NCBI GenBank assembly: GCA_001898965.1
Contig: MKVW01000004.1
Coordinates: forward strand, 537,307 to 601,306
Origin: Rhizobiales bacterium 62-17
GTDB taxonomy: Bacteria; Pseudomonadota; Alphaproteobacteria; Rhizobiales; Beijerinckiaceae
Reading direction: 5' to 3'
DNA: 64,000 nucleotides
The position numbers and the translations under genes are program-made. Positions 35,976 to 44,440 of the stretch are shown here, in pieces. Every line of letters starts with the position of its first letter. The first letter of the stretch is position 1. Below the pieces are notes generated by a model. The model saw nothing but the letters and a program-made list of their open reading frames with translations, did not search any database and was not told the DNA's origin.

Positions 35976-38156
35976 TCACTTCGGATTGGGGTGCCCGTCG
36001 AGGCGTAGCTGATAGACGAAATAGGTCGGCGTGCAGAAGCCGATCTTTTCGTTCCGTAAAACATTGAGCGCCTGCGCACTGGGCTTCACGGCGCCGCGCG
36101 TCAAATCCTCTGGCATGGCCTGGCAAATATAATCCTCGCGGCAGAAGCGCGTTGGCGAGCAGGTATCGAGCATGCCGCGCCCGACACTGGCGGCGAAAGC
36201 CGCGCTGTCGAAATAACCCTTCGCCATCTGCTCGAAGCCCTTGCCGCCGACAATGGCGCAGATTTCATTGGCCGCCTTGCCGGGCAGAAAGGCCGAGAGC
36301 CGCGCTTCCTCCGGCGTACAGGGCCTCGACAGACGACCCAGCGGCACGCCGATCTGGCTCGGACGGCAATTGTTCTCATAACCGCTGAGCTTGCCCTCAG
36401 GCACTTTATAGATCAGCTCTTCCTTGGTGACGCGATCGCTGAACGACCGCACGTTGAAGCTGAGCCGGCTGCCCGAAGCATTTTGAGGCGTCGCGTCGGC
36501 GATGACGTTGGCGCGACAGCTCAGCCCGGCATAGATATTCTTTTGCGCTGGCACGCATTGGCCAAGATGAAACGACGCAGCAGCATTCGTCGTCATCGCC
36601 TGACAGGTGAGACCGCGCGCGCCGCTGCAACTCCAATTGGCCTCGGTGGCAAGATCGGCATTCAACGGGCACGGCATGTTGTCGCCAGCCGCGGCATAGA
36701 TCGGCACCGCCTTCTTGTCCCAATCGGCGGCGGGTGCCGAGGGATGCGGCCGGAAACGATCCGGTGTCTCGCCGCGCGCCAGATGGTCCACATAGCTCTT
36801 GCGGCGCGGCAATTCCGCAGAGACATGCGGCGAGAACGGCAATTGCAGCCTGTTGCCGTCAATCGCGCCCTGAACCGCATTCGCATCACCGAAATCGGAA
36901 CGATCGACGCCGAGAAAATGAAAACCCGCCGTCGAGGACGATTGATGGCAGCCCATGCAGGAGGACGTGTTGAGCCGCTCCAGCAGAGCCGCGCCTGTGC
37001 GCACGAACTTGCGTGACGGATCGCCCCAAGCGTTGACCATCTTGTTGGCCAGTTCCGAGCTGATCACGAGATCGAACGGACGATTGGCAAGACGCGCGCT
37101 GCCGGCCGTCGAATAGCTCAGCGCGATATCAGCCGAAAGCGCGTCCGGAATTTTGAACGCACCCGTATCCACCTCCGCCATGTGAGCGGAGAGATAGTCC
37201 TGCAACTGTTTCTGCTTGGCCGGCTCCTTCAAGATCGCCTGCACATCAGGCGTATTCTCGAGAGCAATCGGCCGGAAGCCTTCGTCGCGGAAAGCGAAAA
37301 TGCGCATCCAATAGATCGCCTGGCCCGCGAGCTTGCGGTTTTCCATCCGCTCGAGATCGGACGGGAAGCGCGCCACCTGCGCATTGATCTCCATCTGCTT
37401 GAAGGTGAGCTTGGAGAAATCGAGCGGCCCTTGCAGCAGCCGTTGGGTAATCACCCCCACGCTGTCCTTGCCTATGCCCTCGACACGCCAGCGCGTGGCG
37501 ATGCTGCGGCAATTGTCGCCGTCGTCAGCATAGCTGAACACCATGTTGACGGTGAACGGCATGCGCGACGCATAGGTCTTGCCGTTCATCTTCACATCAT
37601 AACCGAGACGATAGATGAAGCGCACTTCGCCGCAGTGTCCGGGATCGAAATCGCGCCGATCGATGCGATTGACGACACCGGCAAGAATGAACAAGCCATC
37701 CGACGAGCTGAGCCATTTCTCGTTGAAGACGCGCATCACATTGCCGTTCTGCCGCAATCTTTTGCCGGCCTCCGTCTTCGCGGCCGAGGAAACGTAGGTC
37801 TTCAGAATCTCCTTTTCCCAGTCGATGCCCAGTTCCGAAATCATCCGCGCGATGTCGGCGGACATGACCGAAGCGAATTTGCCATAGCTGTCGCTGAAAC
37901 GTGCGAGATCACTCGCCCGCGTCGATCCCGAAGCCGTGGCGGGTGCAGGCAATGGTAATTTGCGAGCGTCGTGGATGCGCTTGAAGAGGCTGTAGAGCGA
38001 CAGCGGCGCGGTTTTGTCGCGATCGAGCTGCGCCAGCAGCGGCGCTTCGCTGATCAAGGTCACGACGGGCGGAGCCGGCACGGGCTGCGCCACGGCCATC
38101 GGGCCCAGACCGAGGACGACAGCCAAACCCAAAGAGCGAAAGATCGTAAGGCGCAT
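35976..38156 (-). CDS. Large exported protein with a single c-type haem motif and Cys-rich C-terminus
   Basis: 726 aa with a signal peptide (LGLAVVLGLGPMAVAQ). A single C400-M-G-C403-H404 haem-attachment motif occurs mid-protein. The C-terminal ~200 residues hold many cysteines (PCPLNAD, WSCSG, LTCQA, SCRANV, NNCRPS, FCREDYICQAM), likely disulfides. Nothing in the rest matches a family I recognise. Periplasmic or surface redox protein by inference. It would need the Ccm haem-ligation machinery, and ccdA lies elsewhere in the window. Confidence 0.75.
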   Translation of the reverse strand: MRLTIFRSLGLAVVLGLGPMAVAQPVPAPPVVTLISEAPLLAQLDRDKTAPLSLYSLFKRIHDARKLPLPAPATASGSTRASDLARFSDSYGKFASVMSADIARMISELGIDWEKEILKTYVSSAAKTEAGKRLRQNGNVMRVFNEKWLSSSDGLFILAGVVNRIDRRDFDPGHCGEVRFIYRLGYDVKMNGKTYASRMPFTVNMVFSYADDGDNCRSIATRWRVEGIGKDSVGVITQRLLQGPLDFSKLTFKQMEINAQVARFPSDLERMENRKLAGQAIYWMRIFAFRDEGFRPIALENTPDVQAILKEPAKQKQLQDYLSAHMAEVDTGAFKIPDALSADIALSYSTAGSARLANRPFDLVISSELANKMVNAWGDPSRKFVRTGAALLERLNTSSCMGCHQSSSTAGFHFLGVDRSDFGDANAVQGAIDGNRLQLPFSPHVSAELPRRKSYVDHLARGETPDRFRPHPSAPAADWDKKAVPIYAAAGDNMPCPLNADLATEANWSCSGARGLTCQAMTTNAAASFHLGQCVPAQKNIYAGLSCRANVIADATPQNASGSRLSFNVRSFSDRVTKEELIYKVPEGKLSGYENNCRPSQIGVPLGRLSRPCTPEEARLSAFLPGKAANEICAIVGGKGFEQMAKGYFDSAAFAASVGRGMLDTCSPTRFCREDYICQAMPEDLTRGAVKPSAQALNVLRNEKIGFCTPTYFVYQLRLDGHPNPK

Positions 38157-38218: not shown

Positions 38219-39253
38219 TCAAACCACCGGCAGGGTCAGCAGGCCGGCGTCGCCCGTCTCGAGCCCGAAGAGCAGCCGCTTGCCGTCGGCATCCCAGGCC
38301 AAAGCGGTGACCGGGGCACGCGGCCGGTTGCGCGCTTCGACCTCGTCGGTCTCCTCGAGCCCTTTGCGCACCAGAAGTTCGGCGCTGTCGGTGATGCGGC
38401 ACAGCAGCACCCAGCCGTCGTCATAGCCAAGCGCGACGATCGGCGCTTTCGGATGGAAAGCGACGCGGTTGATGCGCGCCGGGCGCACGCCGCATTCGCG
38501 CGGCGCCTTGCCCATCGGCCCATCCTTGGACTCGAACGGCCAGATCACGCAGGCATCGGCGCCGGAGGTAGCCAGCCACTTGCCATCGGGCGACCAGGAA
38601 AAGGAGCGCGTCTTCGACGGATAGCCCGTCATGCGCATGTCCTTCTTGTCGGCGATGCGCCAGCCGTGCAGCGCGTTTTCCTGCATGGCGGTGACGCAGA
38701 ACAGGCCATCGGGCGACACGGTGATGTCGAGATGCGAGCCGGCCCAGCGCAGCATCTCCGGCTCCGCCACCATGTTGGGAAACCACAGGCTCGCGCCATT
38801 ATAGTGCGACATGGCCACCCGATAGCCCTTGGGCATGAAGGCGAGACCGCGCACGCCAGACGGCGCCTGCACGCTCTTGACCGCGCCTTTCGGATCGCGT
38901 GCCCGCACATCCTTGCCGGCCGACCAGGCGGCTGCGCCATCGTCGCGCAGTGCCAAAGCGTCGATCCACTTGCCCTTCTCGTTGCCGATCTCGGTCGCCG
39001 TGCCATTCCCGCGCGTTTCGACCACGCGGCCGTCATCGCCGCCGGTGACCAGCCGATCGCGCCCGCCGGCGGCGCACAGGATCGTCGCATCCGGATGGGC
39101 GAACACGCGCTCGCCGCTGTCGGTGAAAAGCACTTCTCCATTGGCCAGCGCCAGCACCGGCCGGCCATCGAGAAAGGCGCCGGCGACGGCCTCGGCCCCC
39201 GCTTCGATCGGTTGCACGTGGGAAGTCAGGGACTGGTCGTAATTGGTGAGCAT
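38219..39253 (-). CDS. WD40 repeat protein linked to the COG0523 GTPase
   Basis: 344 aa cytosolic beta-propeller. WD-like blades include SFSWSPDGKWLATSGADACVIW, RVAFHPKAPIVALGYDDGWV and ALAWDADGKRLLFGLETGDAG. No catalytic motif. It lies 85 bp downstream of the COG0523 gene on the same strand, with a hairpin in the spacer. Adapter or target protein for zinc delivery is an inference from position. Start at 39253 has only weak GGA upstream. Confidence 0.8.
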   Translation of the reverse strand: MLTNYDQSLTSHVQPIEAGAEAVAGAFLDGRPVLALANGEVLFTDSGERVFAHPDATILCAAGGRDRLVTGGDDGRVVETRGNGTATEIGNEKGKWIDALALRDDGAAAWSAGKDVRARDPKGAVKSVQAPSGVRGLAFMPKGYRVAMSHYNGASLWFPNMVAEPEMLRWAGSHLDITVSPDGLFCVTAMQENALHGWRIADKKDMRMTGYPSKTRSFSWSPDGKWLATSGADACVIWPFESKDGPMGKAPRECGVRPARINRVAFHPKAPIVALGYDDGWVLLCRITDSAELLVRKGLEETDEVEARNRPRAPVTALAWDADGKRLLFGLETGDAGLLTLPVV

Positions 39254-39278
39254 GGATCCGGTGTCTTGTTGTGAGGCC

Positions 39279-39301
39279 GGGGTGGCACGCCGTACCACCC
39301 C
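39279..39301. repeat. GC hairpin between the COG0523 and WD40 genes
   Basis: Perfect 7-bp arms GGGGTGG/CCACCCC with a 9-nt loop and no T-run on the minus strand. Possible transcript-processing or attenuation element that lowers WD40 expression. Confidence 0.5.
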
Positions 39302-39338
39302 GCCTGTTAGGACCGTCTATAAAGCGACTGTAAGAGTT

Positions 39339-40385
39339 TCAGGCCTTGCAAGCCATGAAACCTTCGCGCAGCATCTCTTCGTCGAGCTTGCGGCCAATGA
39401 AGACGATCTTCGATTCCCGCTTCTCGCCCGACTTCCAATCACGCTGCAAATCGCCGTCCAGGATCATGTGCACGCCCTGGAAGACGAAACGCTTCGGCTC
39501 GTCCTTGAACGCCAGAATGCCCTTGTAGCGCAGCAGGCTCGGGCCTTCGGTCTGGGCAATGTGATTGATCCACGGCATGAAGCGGTGCGGATCGACATCG
39601 CCATCGATGTGGAACGACACCGACTGCATGTCTTCGTCGTGATAGTGCTTCAGCCCGTGACCATGATCGTGATGATGGCCATGGCCGTGATCATGATGGT
39701 GGTGGTCATGATCGTGATGATCGTGGTCGTCGACTTCCAGGAAGTCCGGCTCGATTTCGAGAATGCGGTCGAGATCGAAAGCGTTGCGGCCAAGCACGGC
39801 ATCGAGCGGCACATCGCAGCGCGAGGTCTTGTGCAACTTGGCATAGGGGTTGATGGCGCGGATGCGCGCCTCGACCTCACGCAGCTCCTCCGGCGAGACC
39901 AGATCCTGCTTGTTGAGCAGGATGACGTCGGCGAAAGCGATCTGGTTCTTGGCTTCCGGCGCATCCTTCAGCCGTTCCGCCAGCCATTTGGCGTCGGCGA
40001 CGGTGACGACGGCGTCGAGGCGGGCTTCGTCCTGCACGTCCTGGTCGACGAAGAATGTCTGGGCCACGGGCGCCGGATCGGCGAGGCCGGTGGTCTCGAC
40101 CAGAATGGCGTCGAACTTGCCCTTGCGCTTCATCAAGCCTTCGATGATGCGGATCAGGTCGCCGCGCACGGTGCAGCAGATACAGCCGTTGTTCATTTCG
40201 AACACTTCTTCATCGGCGCCGACGATCAGGTCGTTGTCGATGCCGATTTCGCCGAACTCATTGACGATGACCGCGAATTTGTGGCCGTGGTCCTCGGTCA
40301 AAATGCGGTTGAGCAGGGTCGTCTTGCCGGCGCCGAGATAGCCGGTGAGCACGGTGACGGGAATTTTTTCGTTGGTGGCGGTCAT
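39339..40385 (-). CDS. COG0523/CobW-family G3E GTPase with a His-rich loop (putative zinc chaperone)
   Basis: 348 aa: Walker [10 protein letters not shown] (15-23), metal-binding C68-I-C-C71 of the CxCC motif, GTP-specific NKQD (158-161), and a CobW C-terminal domain. Residues 219-251 are almost only His, Asp and Gly, a metal-buffering loop. Such GTPases hand zinc (or cobalt) to client enzymes. Its placement just after the znu operon favours zinc. Start at 40385; longer upstream in-frame sequence is not family-like. No Zur box of its own seen. Confidence 0.88.
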
Positions 40386-40531
40386 GGCGGTCTCCGGCCG
40401 GGCCCTTCGGCGGAGCACCGGCATGTTCGTTAGGGCCCGAGCCTGGCCCAAAAGGCAATCCGACCGGAGAGATAGTCGGCCGCCCCGCCCCTGACAAGCT
40501 TGGAACGATCCGACGGAAAATTCATGAGAAT

Positions 40532-40555: not shown

Positions 40556-41479
40556 TCACGGTTTCAGCGCTTTGGTGAGCTCGCCGAGGTTGTGGCGCAT
40601 CATCCCGATATAGGACGGTGCCGGACCATCCGACGGCGACAGCGAGTCCGAATAGAGCGTGCCGCCGATCCGCGCGCCGGTTTCCCGGGCGATCCGCTCG
40701 GCCAGACGCGGATCGGAGATGTTTTCGACGAACACCGCCGGCACCTTGTCCTGGCGAATCTGGCGGATGATCCGCGCCACATCCTGAGCCGAGGCCTCGC
40801 TCTCGGTCGAGATGCCCTGGGGCGAAATCAGCTTCATACCGTAAGCGGCACCGAAATAACCGAAGGCATCATGGGTGGTGATGATGAGCCGCCGCTCCGG
40901 CGGAATGGCACCAAGGCCAGCGCGGATATCCGCGTCGAGCCCGTCGAGCTGCTTCAGATAAGCATCCGCCCGGCTGCGATAGCCCTCCGCCCCCAACCCA
41001 TCGGCTTGGATCAGCGCATCGCGGATATTGGCGACATAGAGTTTGGCATTGGCGACATCCTGCCAGGCATGCGGATCCGAGGCCGAGTGATTATGCCCGG
41101 CATGACGCTCGGTCATGGTCAGCGGCTTTAGCCCTTTGGTCACCGTCACCACGGACGCCTTGGTGCCGGAGGAGCGCACCAGCCGGTCCATCCAACCCTC
41201 GAAACGGATGCCGTTAACGAAGACCACTTTCGCCGACGTGAGCTTTTTCGCATCGCTTGGCGTCGGCGCATAGACATGCGCATCGCCGCCCGGCCCGACC
41301 AGAACGTCGAGCGCGATCCGATCGCCACCCACCTGTCGCACCATGTCGCCGAGAATCGAGAACGACGCGACGACGGGCAGCTTCGTTTCGGTCTGCGCTG
41401 CGACTGGAAGGGTCGAAACAGCCAACAGACTGCAAGCCAGCGCCAGGGCCTGGCGCCGTGAGGGAATAAGATTGCGCAT
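40556..41479 (-). CDS. znuA: Zinc ABC transporter periplasmic binding protein ZnuA
   Basis: 307 aa cluster A-I (cluster 9) metal-binding protein: signal peptide ending PVAAQ, first ligand His in GGDAHVYAPT, a short His-containing loop (ERHAGHNHSASDPH AW), second and third ligands in DPHAW and TTHDAFGYF, and an acidic ligand in a YSDSLS loop. Captures Zn2+ in the periplasm. Last gene of the Zur-controlled leftward operon, 7 bp after znuB. Mn2+ as ligand is a less likely alternative. Confidence 0.9.
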   Translation of the reverse strand: MRNLIPSRRQALALACSLLAVSTLPVAAQTETKLPVVASFSILGDMVRQVGGDRIALDVLVGPGGDAHVYAPTPSDAKKLTSAKVVFVNGIRFEGWMDRLVRSSGTKASVVTVTKGLKPLTMTERHAGHNHSASDPHAWQDVANAKLYVANIRDALIQADGLGAEGYRSRADAYLKQLDGLDADIRAGLGAIPPERRLIITTHDAFGYFGAAYGMKLISPQGISTESEASAQDVARIIRQIRQDKVPAVFVENISDPRLAERIARETGARIGGTLYSDSLSPSDGPAPSYIGMMRHNLGELTKALKP

Positions 41480-41486
41480 GATCTTC

Positions 41487-42356
41487 CTATGCTTCGAGAT
41501 GTCGGCCAGTCGAAACGTGACGGATCAAACCACCCGCGCGTCCGAAGACGAGCGAGACCAGATGCAGAACGCCGGCGACGAGAATGATCGCCGGGCCAGC
41601 GGGTAAACCGTAATGATAGGACAAGAGCAGGCCGAGATAACTGGAAGCGAGCCCGATGCCGACGGCAATCAAGGTCATCACCGTGATATCGGCAGACCAT
41701 AAGCGCCCAGCAGCCGCCGGCAGCATCATCAGGCCCACGGCGAGCAAAGTGCCGAGCGCATGAAAGCCGGCGACGAGATTGAGCACGACGAGACCGAGAA
41801 ACACCAGTTGCGTCGGCGCGCCGGCACCACTGACGGAAGCCAGAAAGCCCGGATCCAGCGTTTCCAACGCCAGAGCGCGATAGCCGATGGCGAGCACGAT
41901 CAAGGTGACGCTGGCAATGCAGGCGAGCAGCAGCAACGTCGCATCATCGAGCGCCAGCACGCTGCCAAACAGCACATGCAGCAGATCGACGTTGGAACCG
42001 CGCACCGACACGATGACGACGCCCAGCGCCAGCGACAGCAGATAGAAACCAGCGAGCGAAGCATCTTCCCGCAAGGCAGTGAAGCGCGCGACAACACCAG
42101 CGGCCAGCGCCACCGTGAAACCGGCGGCAAGCCCACCTAAGGTCATGGCCGGCAGCGACAGGCCGGCGACGAGATAACCCAGTGCCGCGCCAGGCAGAAT
42201 GGCATGGGCCATGGCATCGCCGGTCAGCGCCATGCGACGCAAAATCAAAAAGACGCCGAGCGGCGCGCCCGACAGCGCCAGAGCGGCAGCACCGACAAGC
42301 GCACGGCGCATGAAATCGAATTCGGCGAAGGGGCCGATCAGCGCATCATAGATCAT
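41487..42356 (-). CDS. znuB: Zinc ABC transporter permease ZnuB
   Basis: 289 aa membrane protein of the ABC-3 family (FMRRALVGAAALALSGAPLG, RRMALTGDAMAHAILPGAAL, FHALGTLLAVGLMMLPAAAG). About eight to nine spans. Four bases after znuC. Confidence 0.92.
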   Translation of the reverse strand: MIYDALIGPFAEFDFMRRALVGAAALALSGAPLGVFLILRRMALTGDAMAHAILPGAALGYLVAGLSLPAMTLGGLAAGFTVALAAGVVARFTALREDASLAGFYLLSLALGVVIVSVRGSNVDLLHVLFGSVLALDDATLLLLACIASVTLIVLAIGYRALALETLDPGFLASVSGAGAPTQLVFLGLVVLNLVAGFHALGTLLAVGLMMLPAAAGRLWSADITVMTLIAVGIGLASSYLGLLLSYHYGLPAGPAIILVAGVLHLVSLVFGRAGGLIRHVSTGRHLEA

Positions 42357-42360
42357 GGCA

Positions 42361-43101
42361 TCACGCGGCGCGTTCGCATTCGTGCGCCTGGCGGTCGAAA
42401 GCTTCCGCCATGCGTCGCGCCGACAACAGATTCTCGGCGCTCAACACCTGCGTCGTGTCACCCCAGGCGATGCTTTCGCGCGCCATCAACAGGGTCTGCG
42501 GGAAATGTTTGCGCACGAGTTCAAGATCGTGCAGCACCGCGAGCACGGTACGCTTCTCGCCATGCCAGCGGCTGATGAGATCGACGAGATCGGCCACGGT
42601 GCGTTGATCGATAGCGTTGAACGGTTCGTCGAGCAGAATGATCGGCGCGTCCTGCAACAGCACCCGCGCGAACAAAGCACGTTGCATCTGCCCGCCCGAC
42701 AAGGTGCCGATGGCACGATCCTCGAAGCCGGTGAGACCGACGGCGGCAATGGCTTCGAACGTGCGTTCGCGTGCCTTGCGGCCAAGGCCGCCGAACAAGC
42801 CGGCGGAGCGCCAGGCGCCCAATGCCACCAGATCGAAGACATTGATCGGGAAAGACCGGTCGATTTCGGCAGCCTGCGGCAGATAGGCGATGTCGCGCGG
42901 CCGGCAGCTTTCGAGCTTCACCGCGCCGTCGAGCGGCTTCAGTGCCCCGGCAATGCCTTTCAGCAAGGTCGATTTGCCGGCGCCATTGGGGCCACAGACG
43001 GCGAGCAGGGCGCCACCATCCACCTGGCCGGAGAGATGATGCACGGCCGGATGCCGGTCATAGCCCAGCGTCAGATCACGGAATGTAATGGCGGCGCTCA
43101 T
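42361..43101 (-). CDS. znuC: Zinc ABC transporter ATPase ZnuC
   Basis: 246 aa: Walker A CGPNGAGKST, Q-loop AYLPQAAEIDRSFPINVFD, signature LSGGQMQRALFARVL, Walker B IILLDEPFNAID, H-loop LHDLE. It powers ZnuB. Its ATG overlaps the stop of the small His-rich gene (ATGA), so the two are translationally coupled. Confidence 0.93.
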   Translation of the reverse strand: MSAAITFRDLTLGYDRHPAVHHLSGQVDGGALLAVCGPNGAGKSTLLKGIAGALKPLDGAVKLESCRPRDIAYLPQAAEIDRSFPINVFDLVALGAWRSAGLFGGLGRKARERTFEAIAAVGLTGFEDRAIGTLSGGQMQRALFARVLLQDAPIILLDEPFNAIDQRTVADLVDLISRWHGEKRTVLAVLHDLELVRKHFPQTLLMARESIAWGDTTQVLSAENLLSARRMAEAFDRQAHECERAA

Positions 43102-43310
43102 TGCAAAGCCCAGAAGACGGCGCCCCAGAGCGCGAGGACGATCAGCCCGGCGCCCGCCAGGCGCTGGCCGGCCGAGAGCCGCAGCAGCGAAAACCCCGGA
43201 ACCACTGGCCGCGCCAGGACCGGCGCCACCGCCCCGGAATGACCATGAACATGGCTATGCCCATGTGCATGGCTATGGTCGTGAGAAGCGGAATGATGGT
43301 GATCGTGCAC
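43098..43310 (-). CDS. Small His-rich membrane protein heading the Zur-controlled znu operon
   Basis: 70 aa if the GTG at 43310 is the start. The first ~25 residues are His/Ser/Asp/Gly (HDHHHSASHDHSHAHGHS), followed by a linker and a C-terminal membrane helix (LAGAGLIVLALWGAVFWAL). The frame is open further upstream, but the Zur palindrome at 43341-43355 would lie inside the gene, so a start downstream of it is chosen; no strong Shine-Dalgarno is seen. ATGA overlap with znuC. Possibly a membrane-tethered zinc buffer or a partner of ZnuB; not a known Znu component. Confidence 0.7.
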   Translation of the reverse strand: MHDHHHSASHDHSHAHGHSHVHGHSGAVAPVLARPVVPGFSLLRLSAGQRLAGAGLIVLALWGAVFWALQ

Positions 43311-43340
43311 GCCAAAACTGCCGGAACGCGGAAAATGTGC

Positions 43341-43355
43341 TGTTATACTATAACA
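43341..43355. promoter_or_regulatory. Zur box (TGTTATA-C-TATAACA)
   Basis: Perfect 7-1-7 palindrome that matches the rhizobial Zur consensus (GTTATA-N-TATAAC). It is 31 bp before the start of the leftward His-rich-znuCBA operon, so Zn-bound Zur should repress that operon. Confidence 0.88.
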
Positions 43356-43462
43356 ACACCCGCAGCCGCGCCAGCACAAAATAAAAGAGCCGTTGGAGGG
43401 AGCTGACACAGGTTCGCTCACCCCTCAACGGCCTAACCGTCTGAATAACGGTGAATAACGCC

Positions 43463-44440
43463 CTACTCTTCCGGCACGTAGCCCGAGCTTTTGACGATCG
43501 GTCCCCAGCGCTCCGTATCGGCCTTCACCTGCTGAGCAAACTGCGGCTGCGGCAGGAAATACATTTCATTGGCGAATTTGGCCTGGGCTTCGATCATCGC
43601 CGGCAGTTGCACCGCCTTTTCCAGCGCCTGGCTCAGGGCCGTCACCACTTTCGGATCGGCCTTGGCCGGCAGAAAGATGCCGGTCCAGGTGTTGACCGAC
43701 GCGTCATAGCCAACCTCGCGCATGGTCGGCACATCGGGCAGGAAACGCGAACGCTCCGAACTCGCCACCGCCAGCATGCGGATCTGGCCGGCTTGGCCCA
43801 GCGGCAGCGCCTCGCCGATCGGATTGATGCTCGCCGCCACATGACCGCCCAGCAGATCCTGCAAGGCCGGCGCACCACCGCGGTAATGCACCGGCGTCAT
43901 CGGCACCTTGCTGGCGTTCGACAGCAACACGCCGACGAAATGCGGCGTGCCGCCAGCGCCCGTCGTCGCATAGCTCGCTTTGCCCGGATTGGCTTTGCAC
44001 CATTCAACGAAGTTTTGCAGCGTCTTGACGCTCTCGGGCACCGAAGGTCCGACGCTGAGCACCAGCGCCGATTTGGTCAGCGGCGCGACGGGCGTCAGAT
44101 CGTTGATCGGATCGTAGTTGAGCTTCTTGAAGATGTGCGGATAAAGCGTCAGCGGAAAATCGACCGTGTAAAGCAACGTGCTGCCATCCGGCGCGGCGTT
44201 CTTCACATAGTCGACGGCGATGCGTCCGGCCGCACCCACTTTGTTTTCGACAATGACGGTTGGCGCATAGGAGCGCAATTGCTCGGCGAACAAACGCGCG
44301 GTCGCATCGGTCGAGCCACCGGCAGCAAAACCGACGATCATCGTCGCCTGTTTGCCGATCGTCTGCGCGAAAGCCTGATGGAAGCCCAAAGTGGCGGCGC
44401 CCGCGAGCGAACCGGCCAAAGCCTGGCGGCGTGTCAGCAT
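43463..44440 (-). CDS. Bug/TctC-type substrate-binding protein with Tat-like signal
   Basis: 325 aa: N-terminus MLTRRQALAGSLAGAATLGF, a twin-arginine-like signal, then ATMIVGFAAGGSTDATARL and VHYRGGAPALQDLLGGH. The start at 44440 has GGAGG 5 nt upstream; the in-frame codon at 44497 has none. Fifth Bug-type protein of the window; no membrane subunits nearby. Confidence 0.87.
   Translation of the reverse strand: MLTRRQALAGSLAGAATLGFHQAFAQTIGKQATMIVGFAAGGSTDATARLFAEQLRSYAPTVIVENKVGAAGRIAVDYVKNAAPDGSTLLYTVDFPLTLYPHIFKKLNYDPINDLTPVAPLTKSALVLSVGPSVPESVKTLQNFVEWCKANPGKASYATTGAGGTPHFVGVLLSNASKVPMTPVHYRGGAPALQDLLGGHVAASINPIGEALPLGQAGQIRMLAVASSERSRFLPDVPTMREVGYDASVNTWTGIFLPAKADPKVVTALSQALEKAVQLPAMIEAQAKFANEMYFLPQPQFAQQVKADTERWGPIVKSSGYVPEE

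Follow-up and report, generated by a model that had tools for sequence, protein, structure and literature searches.

A family of one-helix microproteins encoded directly upstream of znuC in Azt/Zni-type zinc importer operons

Small bacterial proteins of about 30-60 residues with a single helix, such as CydX, KdpF, AcrZ, MgtS and CbtB, are encoded with, or act on, a large membrane protein, and small single-span proteins can also act on targets other than their neighbours. Zinc importers of the Azt/Zni type have been described without such a part: in the available sections of the respective papers, zniCBA of Klebsiella pneumoniae (PMC10797113), znuCBA/mntABC of Neisseria gonorrhoeae (PMC9280163) and zniCBA of Rhizobium leguminosarum (PMC12183173) are each presented as a three-gene operon, and the microprotein considered here is not among the genes listed for AztABCD/ZniCBA (PMC10797113, PMC12183173). 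The Zur box of R. leguminosarum, as given in the accessible part of the same report, lies 153 bp upstream of the ATPase gene and leaves room for such an ORF (PMC12183173). According to the sections at hand of another paper, PacL1 of Mycobacterium tuberculosis is a single-span protein encoded together with the zinc exporter CtpC; it requires its metal-binding motif only when zinc is high, while transporter abundance is maintained by its Glu/Ala repeats and does not depend on that motif, which in paralogues differs or is partial (PMC9374683). The words zinc and znu are absent from the main text, in its available portion, of a study of small proteins in Sinorhizobium meliloti (PMC10117765), and among the listed matches in the open-licence part of PMC, which leaves subscription journals mostly outside coverage, no title or abstract describes the microprotein.

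The window, a 64,000-nucleotide stretch of the genome of Rhizobiales bacterium 62-17 (contig MKVW01000004.1), contains a minus-strand operon in which the palindrome TGTTATAGTATAACA is followed by a 70-codon ORF and then by genes for an ATPase, a permease, a periplasmic binding protein, a COG0523 GTPase and a WD40 protein (Table 1). The first-pass annotation had recognized a gene of about 70 residues at the head of this operon, behind a perfect Zur-type palindrome and coupled to znuC through ATGA, and this layout is confirmed: the palindrome has no mismatches, and ATGA is common to the stop of the microprotein gene and the start of the ATPase gene. Judged by model scores, the transporter is closest to AztA, AztB and AztC, falling just under each NCBI cut-off (NF040873, NF040871 and NF040870, respectively; scores in Table 1), and the cut-offs for the E. 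coli-type ZnuC, ZnuB and ZnuA (PRK09544, PRK09543 and PRK09545) were missed by far, with 83.7, 79.1 and 69.8 bits against 306, 284 and 268. It shares gene order and a Zur box with AztABCD/ZniCBA, but differs in the presence of COG0523 GTPase and WD40 genes, in subunit scores below the Azt cut-offs, and in the lack of aztD, for which two AztD proteins used as queries yielded nothing better than E 3.3 in the window. The GTPase carries a long His/Asp stretch of its own, and the pair it forms with the WD40 gene within the same operon (38219-40451) fits the clustering of COG0523 subfamily 5 with WD40 genes and znuABC that is reported in the available part of PMC2770081. Downstream of the WD40 gene, positions 35976-38156 code for a protein of 726 residues whose N-terminus resembles a signal sequence and which contains a CxxCH motif; it had no NCBIfam match at E<=1e-10.

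Table 1. Features of the microprotein-znuCBA operon, in window coordinates.
Feature	Position	Strand	Basis
Zur-type palindrome TGTTATA-C/G-TATAACA, putative Zur operator	43341..43355	.	Sequence pattern match
Microprotein gene, 70 codons, GTG start, TGA overlapping ATG of znuC	43098..43310	-	ORF, family conservation, purifying selection
His/Asp-rich N-terminal tail, residues 2-24, 12 His, predicted cytosolic, lineage-specific	43239..43307	-	Sequence; without secondary structure (AlphaFold2)
C-terminal transmembrane helix (predicted), residues 47-69, conserved R50 and W62	43104..43172	-	Alignments, profile, AlphaFold2
znuC / AztA-type ATPase	42361..43101	-	AztA model 219.7 bits, cut-off 220
znuB / AztB-type permease (ABC-3)	41487..42356	-	AztB model 264.7 bits, cut-off 280
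znuA / AztC-type periplasmic zinc-binding protein	40556..41479	-	AztC model 326.2 bits, cut-off 350
COG0523 (CobW-type) GTPase, own His-rich stretch, start codon uncertain	39339..40451	-	Sequence; PMC2770081 (seen in part)
WD40 repeat protein adjoining COG0523 gene	38219..39298	-	Sequence; PMC2770081 (seen in part)

At up to three mismatches, the pattern TGTTATANTATAACA has a single site in the window, the perfect one at the head of the operon, compared with a mean of 0.11 sites in shuffled versions of the window (at least one match in 10 of 100 shuffles). A Zur consensus of another shape, GTAATGTAATAACATTAC, had no match in the window, and the palindrome actually present there was used as the pattern. 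Genome-wide, five sites were found at up to two mismatches: two are perfect, two differ at a single position, and the fifth, with two mismatches, is 40 bases from one of the other four. The reversed control pattern gave two. One of the other sites adjoins the gene of a second COG0523 GTPase (C4:624954; L380), two neighbouring ones that of a TonB-dependent receptor (C4:248292 and 248252; L381), and one that of a TonB protein (C4:720388; L382); together with the operon in the window, these genes probably make up a zinc-starvation regulon. Upstream of the homologues described below, the palindrome recurs at up to two mismatches in 148 of 276 regions (0.0 in shuffles) and at up to three in 183 of 276 (0.8 in shuffles). 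From the palindrome and this recurrence we infer that the site at 43341-43355 acts as a Zur operator.

The predicted microprotein is read from GTG 43310 to TGA 43098; a stretch with 12 histidines (residues 2-24) is followed by a Pro/Ala linker, and the protein ends with FSLLRLSAGQRLAGAGLIVLALWGAVFWALQ. AlphaFold2 places a helix at residues 47-69 with a pLDDT of about 97 and no further helix or other element of four or more residues, the rest having a pLDDT of about 67-84, so that the His/Asp cluster followed by one C-terminal helix noted at first reading is recovered. Apart from GTG 43310, no in-frame ATG, GTG or TTG lies between the His cluster and the palindrome. The closest relative (locus L010, with a 96% identical znuC) has an in-frame stop inside the palindrome, which leaves the corresponding GTG as its sole standard start too. 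By eye, no Shine-Dalgarno-like sequence precedes it, so that GTG 43310 is a putative start. Searches of Pfam, NCBIfam and PDB with the microprotein family gave no credible match, only weak and scattered ones in single members at best: Zip (E 0.0013) and Sdh_cyt (0.013) in Pfam, a nickel/cobalt efflux family (0.00026) and DmeF (0.0069) in NCBIfam (4 of 44 members), and a best E of 0.11 in PDB. Families of the CydX, KdpF, AcrZ, MgtS and CbtB type were not among the Pfam matches of its members. The window protein stayed below the cut-off of the ZrgA family (PF10986; 11.8 bits against 27.4, E 0.24), with the His stretch only being aligned.

We compared this gene with the regions upstream of related importer genes in two sets, the 30 best znuB loci from a family search that matched 158 of 199 genomes, and the 80 top-scoring znuC loci among 576 named relatives scanned. 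A microprotein homologue was found upstream of znuC by profile in 108 of these 110 loci (104 of them distinct; the 110 include the window's own locus and some duplicates), and absence from related znu operons, which could have spoken against the first reading, was thus not what we observed. The remaining two loci (L018 and L024) have neither a znuC in the locus nor a profile match, and the microproteins of L050 and L074 were missed by a regular expression and found by the profile. Among 44 full-length members, the alignment has four invariant positions, M1 (the start codon), S41, R50 and W62, and in 128 core sequences the Arg and Trp are invariant. The same pair, exactly 12 residues apart (R-x11-W), is present in 274 of the 278 distinct cores found by profile, or 275 if Tyr is allowed, counts which are partly conditioned on the profile because the profiles were built from transporter-found members. 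The N-terminus and the length vary freely, the latter from 29 to 147 aa under the start rule used. As judged from these alignments, the conserved part of the family is the C-terminal membrane helix with its R-x11-W core, not the histidines.

The histidines themselves were counted on the open frame, as the chosen start made some rows (among them L152, L174 and L082) look His-poor. A strong cluster, with at least four His in some 15-residue window, is present in 158 of 278 members, 2-3 His in 32, and one or none in 88. Grouped by search scope, with three further sequences ungrouped, strong clusters were counted in Hyphomicrobiales (145 of 183 members), in other Alphaproteobacteria (10 of 65) and in genomes beyond the class (3 of 27); L312, from outside Alphaproteobacteria (GC 71%), has a His-rich tail, perhaps gained independently. 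The cluster is thus an add-on to a wider family. This bears on the reading in which the microprotein is a membrane-tethered buffer or collector of zinc, with the His tail as its working part and the helix as a mere anchor: 12 His within 23 residues in the window, the strong clusters in over half of the members and the zinc-related operon all speak for it, but 88 of 278 members, as well as the translated parts of those from K. pneumoniae and N. gonorrhoeae, which are His-poor, have no His cluster, and a mere anchor would need no conserved Trp inside its helix. We consider it unlikely. A role as zinc collector or sensor can therefore only be a lineage-specific extra, and the first-pass view of the His cluster as the essence of the protein does not hold.

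The nine-residue segment that ends with the conserved Arg has a mean of 1.65 positive and 0.13 negative charges, compared with 0.25 and 0.09 for the stretch following the helix. By the positive-inside rule, this bias suggests that the N-terminus, and the His tail with it, would be cytosolic (N-in), which disfavours a sensor of periplasmic zinc, one of the options initially raised. Conservation of the Trp within the helix would be better explained by contact with another protein than by membrane anchoring alone. PacL1 is the nearest working analogue, in a comparison that concerns the way of working: common to both are the helix and the linkage to a transporter gene, with the cytoplasmic side of our protein predicted from the charges. 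As far as the available sections on PacL go, both are small single-span proteins encoded with a metal transporter, and the cytoplasmic part of PacL, with a metal-binding motif that varies among its paralogues, would have a putative counterpart in the His tail; PacL differs in being actinobacterial, in its P-ATPase exporter partner, in its Glu/Ala repeats and in the C-terminal location of its metal motif (PMC9374683), whereas in the microprotein the helix is C-terminal and the partner would be an ABC importer. Neither the 44 full-length nor the 128 core members matched DUF1490, the PacL family.

Selection on the coding sequence was estimated from 56 independent close pairs over the last 35 codons. 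The microprotein frame has a dN/dS of 0.199 (bootstrap 95% 0.167-0.235) and the same DNA in the other two frames 1.60 and 2.58. In the microprotein frame, the first, second and third codon positions account for 203, 133 and 511 differences, respectively. The family profile matched 330 of 337 upstream regions in sense and none of the 337 in antisense orientation, these regions having been pre-selected for a sense match. At seven other ABC loci of the same genome, taken as a control, the best core-profile match had E 0.034, compared with 2.8e-17 for the window gene; a second, weak match (E 0.007) lies elsewhere in this genome, at C1:127112-127195. At the level of sequence, these comparisons confirm the observation that the ORF in the window is a real microprotein gene. 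Purifying selection of this kind also bears on the possibility that translation of the ORF serves solely to deliver ribosomes to znuC, its peptide being inert. Its place as the first gene after the Zur box, its free N-terminus and length, and the close spacing of the genes (a median gap of 4 nt between the microprotein stop and the extrapolated znuC start, with overlap in 100 of 278 cases) would all suit such a coupling leader, but neither a conserved helix nor a tryptophan is needed for it, and a dN/dS of 0.20 together with R-x11-W being kept across classes and at local GC values from 31 to 71% speaks against it; we regard this possibility as improbable.

Searched on its own, without regard to the transporter, the microprotein profile found a match in 135 of the order's 397 genomes (exactly one in 134) and in 46 of 385 genomes of the class. 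Out of about 180 matched places, 98 loci were inspected (L119-L216, namely the top 30 matches of either search plus 40 picked for their divergence, the window's own among them), and in 97 of them znuC lies directly behind the microprotein gene on the same strand, starting from -7 to +70 nt from its stop; the exception, L214, is at a contig edge. At the phylum level, the core profile matched 59 of 299 genomes at E<=0.01. Thirty genomes outside the class have a core-profile match, and 26 of the 27 examined have znuC directly downstream, from 13 nt overlapping to 26 nt away, L334 being the exception. Carriers include a record of N. gonorrhoeae, Methylobacterium bullatum, K. pneumoniae and Enterobacter hormaechei (both with the locus between mltB and pncC), Neorhizobium, Bartonella, Skermanella, Comamonas, Thioclava and Gemmobacter. 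On profile matches and gene order, then, the family extends to other Alphaproteobacteria and beyond, and what was first noted as a feature of one operon is broader than stated: a new family of proteins with one predicted helix bearing R-x11-W, encoded directly upstream of, and on the same strand as, an Azt/Zni-type znuC, into which the window protein fits.

With the transporter as query, a microprotein was found in 63 of 76 genomes of the order (58 at E<=0.01), and 13 of 76 had no match; in 47 of the 63 it is a profile match some 0.9 kb ahead of znuB in the same orientation, and the other 16 come from local reading. At the class level, znuC was placed in 68 loci, and 60 of these have the microprotein (52 at E<=0.01) and eight have no match. 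Some of the counted matches are weak. The class-level set covers 69 of 79 places, leaving out the window's own, six carriers from the profile-found set, and G852, G796 and G706. L353, L361 and L378 have no profile match and are counted as lacking the microprotein in the order-level figure; on visual inspection, a one-helix ORF of different appearance lies further upstream of znuC in L378, and the ORF seen there in L353 and L361 resembles the family but shows no clear helix. On a tree of the ATPase with 199 rows, the presence of the microprotein requires 10 changes, compared with 21.1 for shuffled labels (minimum 17), in a count which leaves out these three loci and takes L237, L265 and L355, with weak scores and a visible helix, as carriers by eye. 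Of the 22 microprotein-free rows, 12 form one clade with a support of 98, and the other ten are scattered. It is hard to reconcile this pattern with an independent small membrane protein which shares only the promoter and regulates, for example, another membrane target in zinc starvation: small single-span proteins can act beyond their neighbours, but presence here follows the ATPase tree, the gene adjoins znuC in 97 of the 98 profile-found loci, and no second match exists in 134 of 135 genomes of the order. We find such an arrangement quite improbable.

The microprotein-free clade holds all six tree rows that have aztD and lack the microprotein. Among nine loci with an aztD homologue, the microprotein is lacking in eight (L335-L338, L368, L377, L395 and L397), and L170 has both; the two genes thus nearly exclude each other; at most loci the downstream DNA is too short to rule out an aztD. 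AztABCD operons mostly do without the microprotein, and this transporter type therefore does not strictly need it, a point that weighs against a subunit role, as does the fact that no fused form was noticed.

The initial statement that known Znu systems have no such part holds for the printed descriptions, in the sections available, but not for the DNA, as zniCBA of K. pneumoniae and, presumably, znuCBA of N. gonorrhoeae carry a His-poor version. The K. pneumoniae locus is placed between mltB and pncC in the published account as well, in its accessible part (PMC10797113); the N. gonorrhoeae record is unannotated in this region, and we presume from its content that it is the published znuCBA/mntABC operon. 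Fifteen annotated regions had listed genes; eight of them contain the microprotein, and a gene is listed for it in two (Skermanella and Comamonas), in both cases as a "hypothetical protein". The gene tables of PLSDB are incomplete. Gene finders can miss the family because its proteins are small.

An attenuator leader such as hisL counts His codons. That the ORF is non-coding, being either a chance frame in a GC-rich genome or a leader of this sort, is very improbable: a GTG start, the absence of a clear ribosome-binding site and a low-complexity N-terminus could be taken that way, but we rejected a chance ORF for the family on dN/dS, the frame controls and the antisense control, and a His-codon attenuator since the microprotein stop overlaps znuC and leaves no room for one and since many members lack His runs and contain few His codons or none, with no Rfam match over 42900-43600.

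A hand-over of zinc from the His tail to the COG0523 GTPase was also considered. Over 119 loci, 68 have both the tail and a COG0523 gene, 31 have neither and 20 are discordant, and the raw counts of 11/20 against 2/20 (Fisher p 0.006) were suggestive; with relatedness taken into account, five independent pairs were left and gave no support to the association.

Our preferred reading, to which we assign a probability of about 0.62, is that the microprotein is a single-span accessory subunit of the Azt/Zni-type zinc ABC importer, with its helix on the permease and, in this lineage, a cytosolic zinc-binding tail. Among the three roles first suggested (zinc collector, ZnuB partner or sensor), the ZnuB partner fits best, since what is conserved is a membrane helix and since the gene goes together with znuC, and the collector and the sensor fall away as roles of the family as a whole, given the members without His. 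The microprotein would be made first from a Zur-repressed operon, in translational coupling with the ATPase gene; its helix would insert N-in/C-out and pack on the permease (ZnuB/AztB) through a face with the conserved Trp and small residues, and could thereby aid the assembly, the stability or the regulation and gating of the ZnuB-ZnuC complex. In Beijerinckiaceae, Bradyrhizobium and relatives, the short cytosolic N-terminus may have grown into a disordered His/Asp tail, which might catch zinc as it leaves the permease. The tail could then act as a buffer, relay the metal (for example to the operon's own COG0523 GTPase) or, once loaded, slow import.

A bolder extension is offered tentatively: that a broad group of proteobacterial zinc importers, among them those of Klebsiella, Neisseria and perhaps Rhizobium, possesses an unlisted fourth subunit, a one-helix protein of 30-150 residues that holds or gates the permease, with the cytosolic His tail, where present, serving as a built-in sensor that captures entering zinc and, once loaded, slows import, or else hands the zinc to the COG0523 GTPase, and that the AztABCD lineage has dropped it. 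Importers of this type have been studied, in symbiosis and in infection, as ATPase, permease and binding protein only, and if a fourth subunit exists, the reconstitutions, structures and mutants made without the microprotein would be incomplete. Direct tests could build on the conserved residues and on the His tail that some members have and, if the reading is correct, an ABC metal importer would gain a post-translational handle beside Zur.
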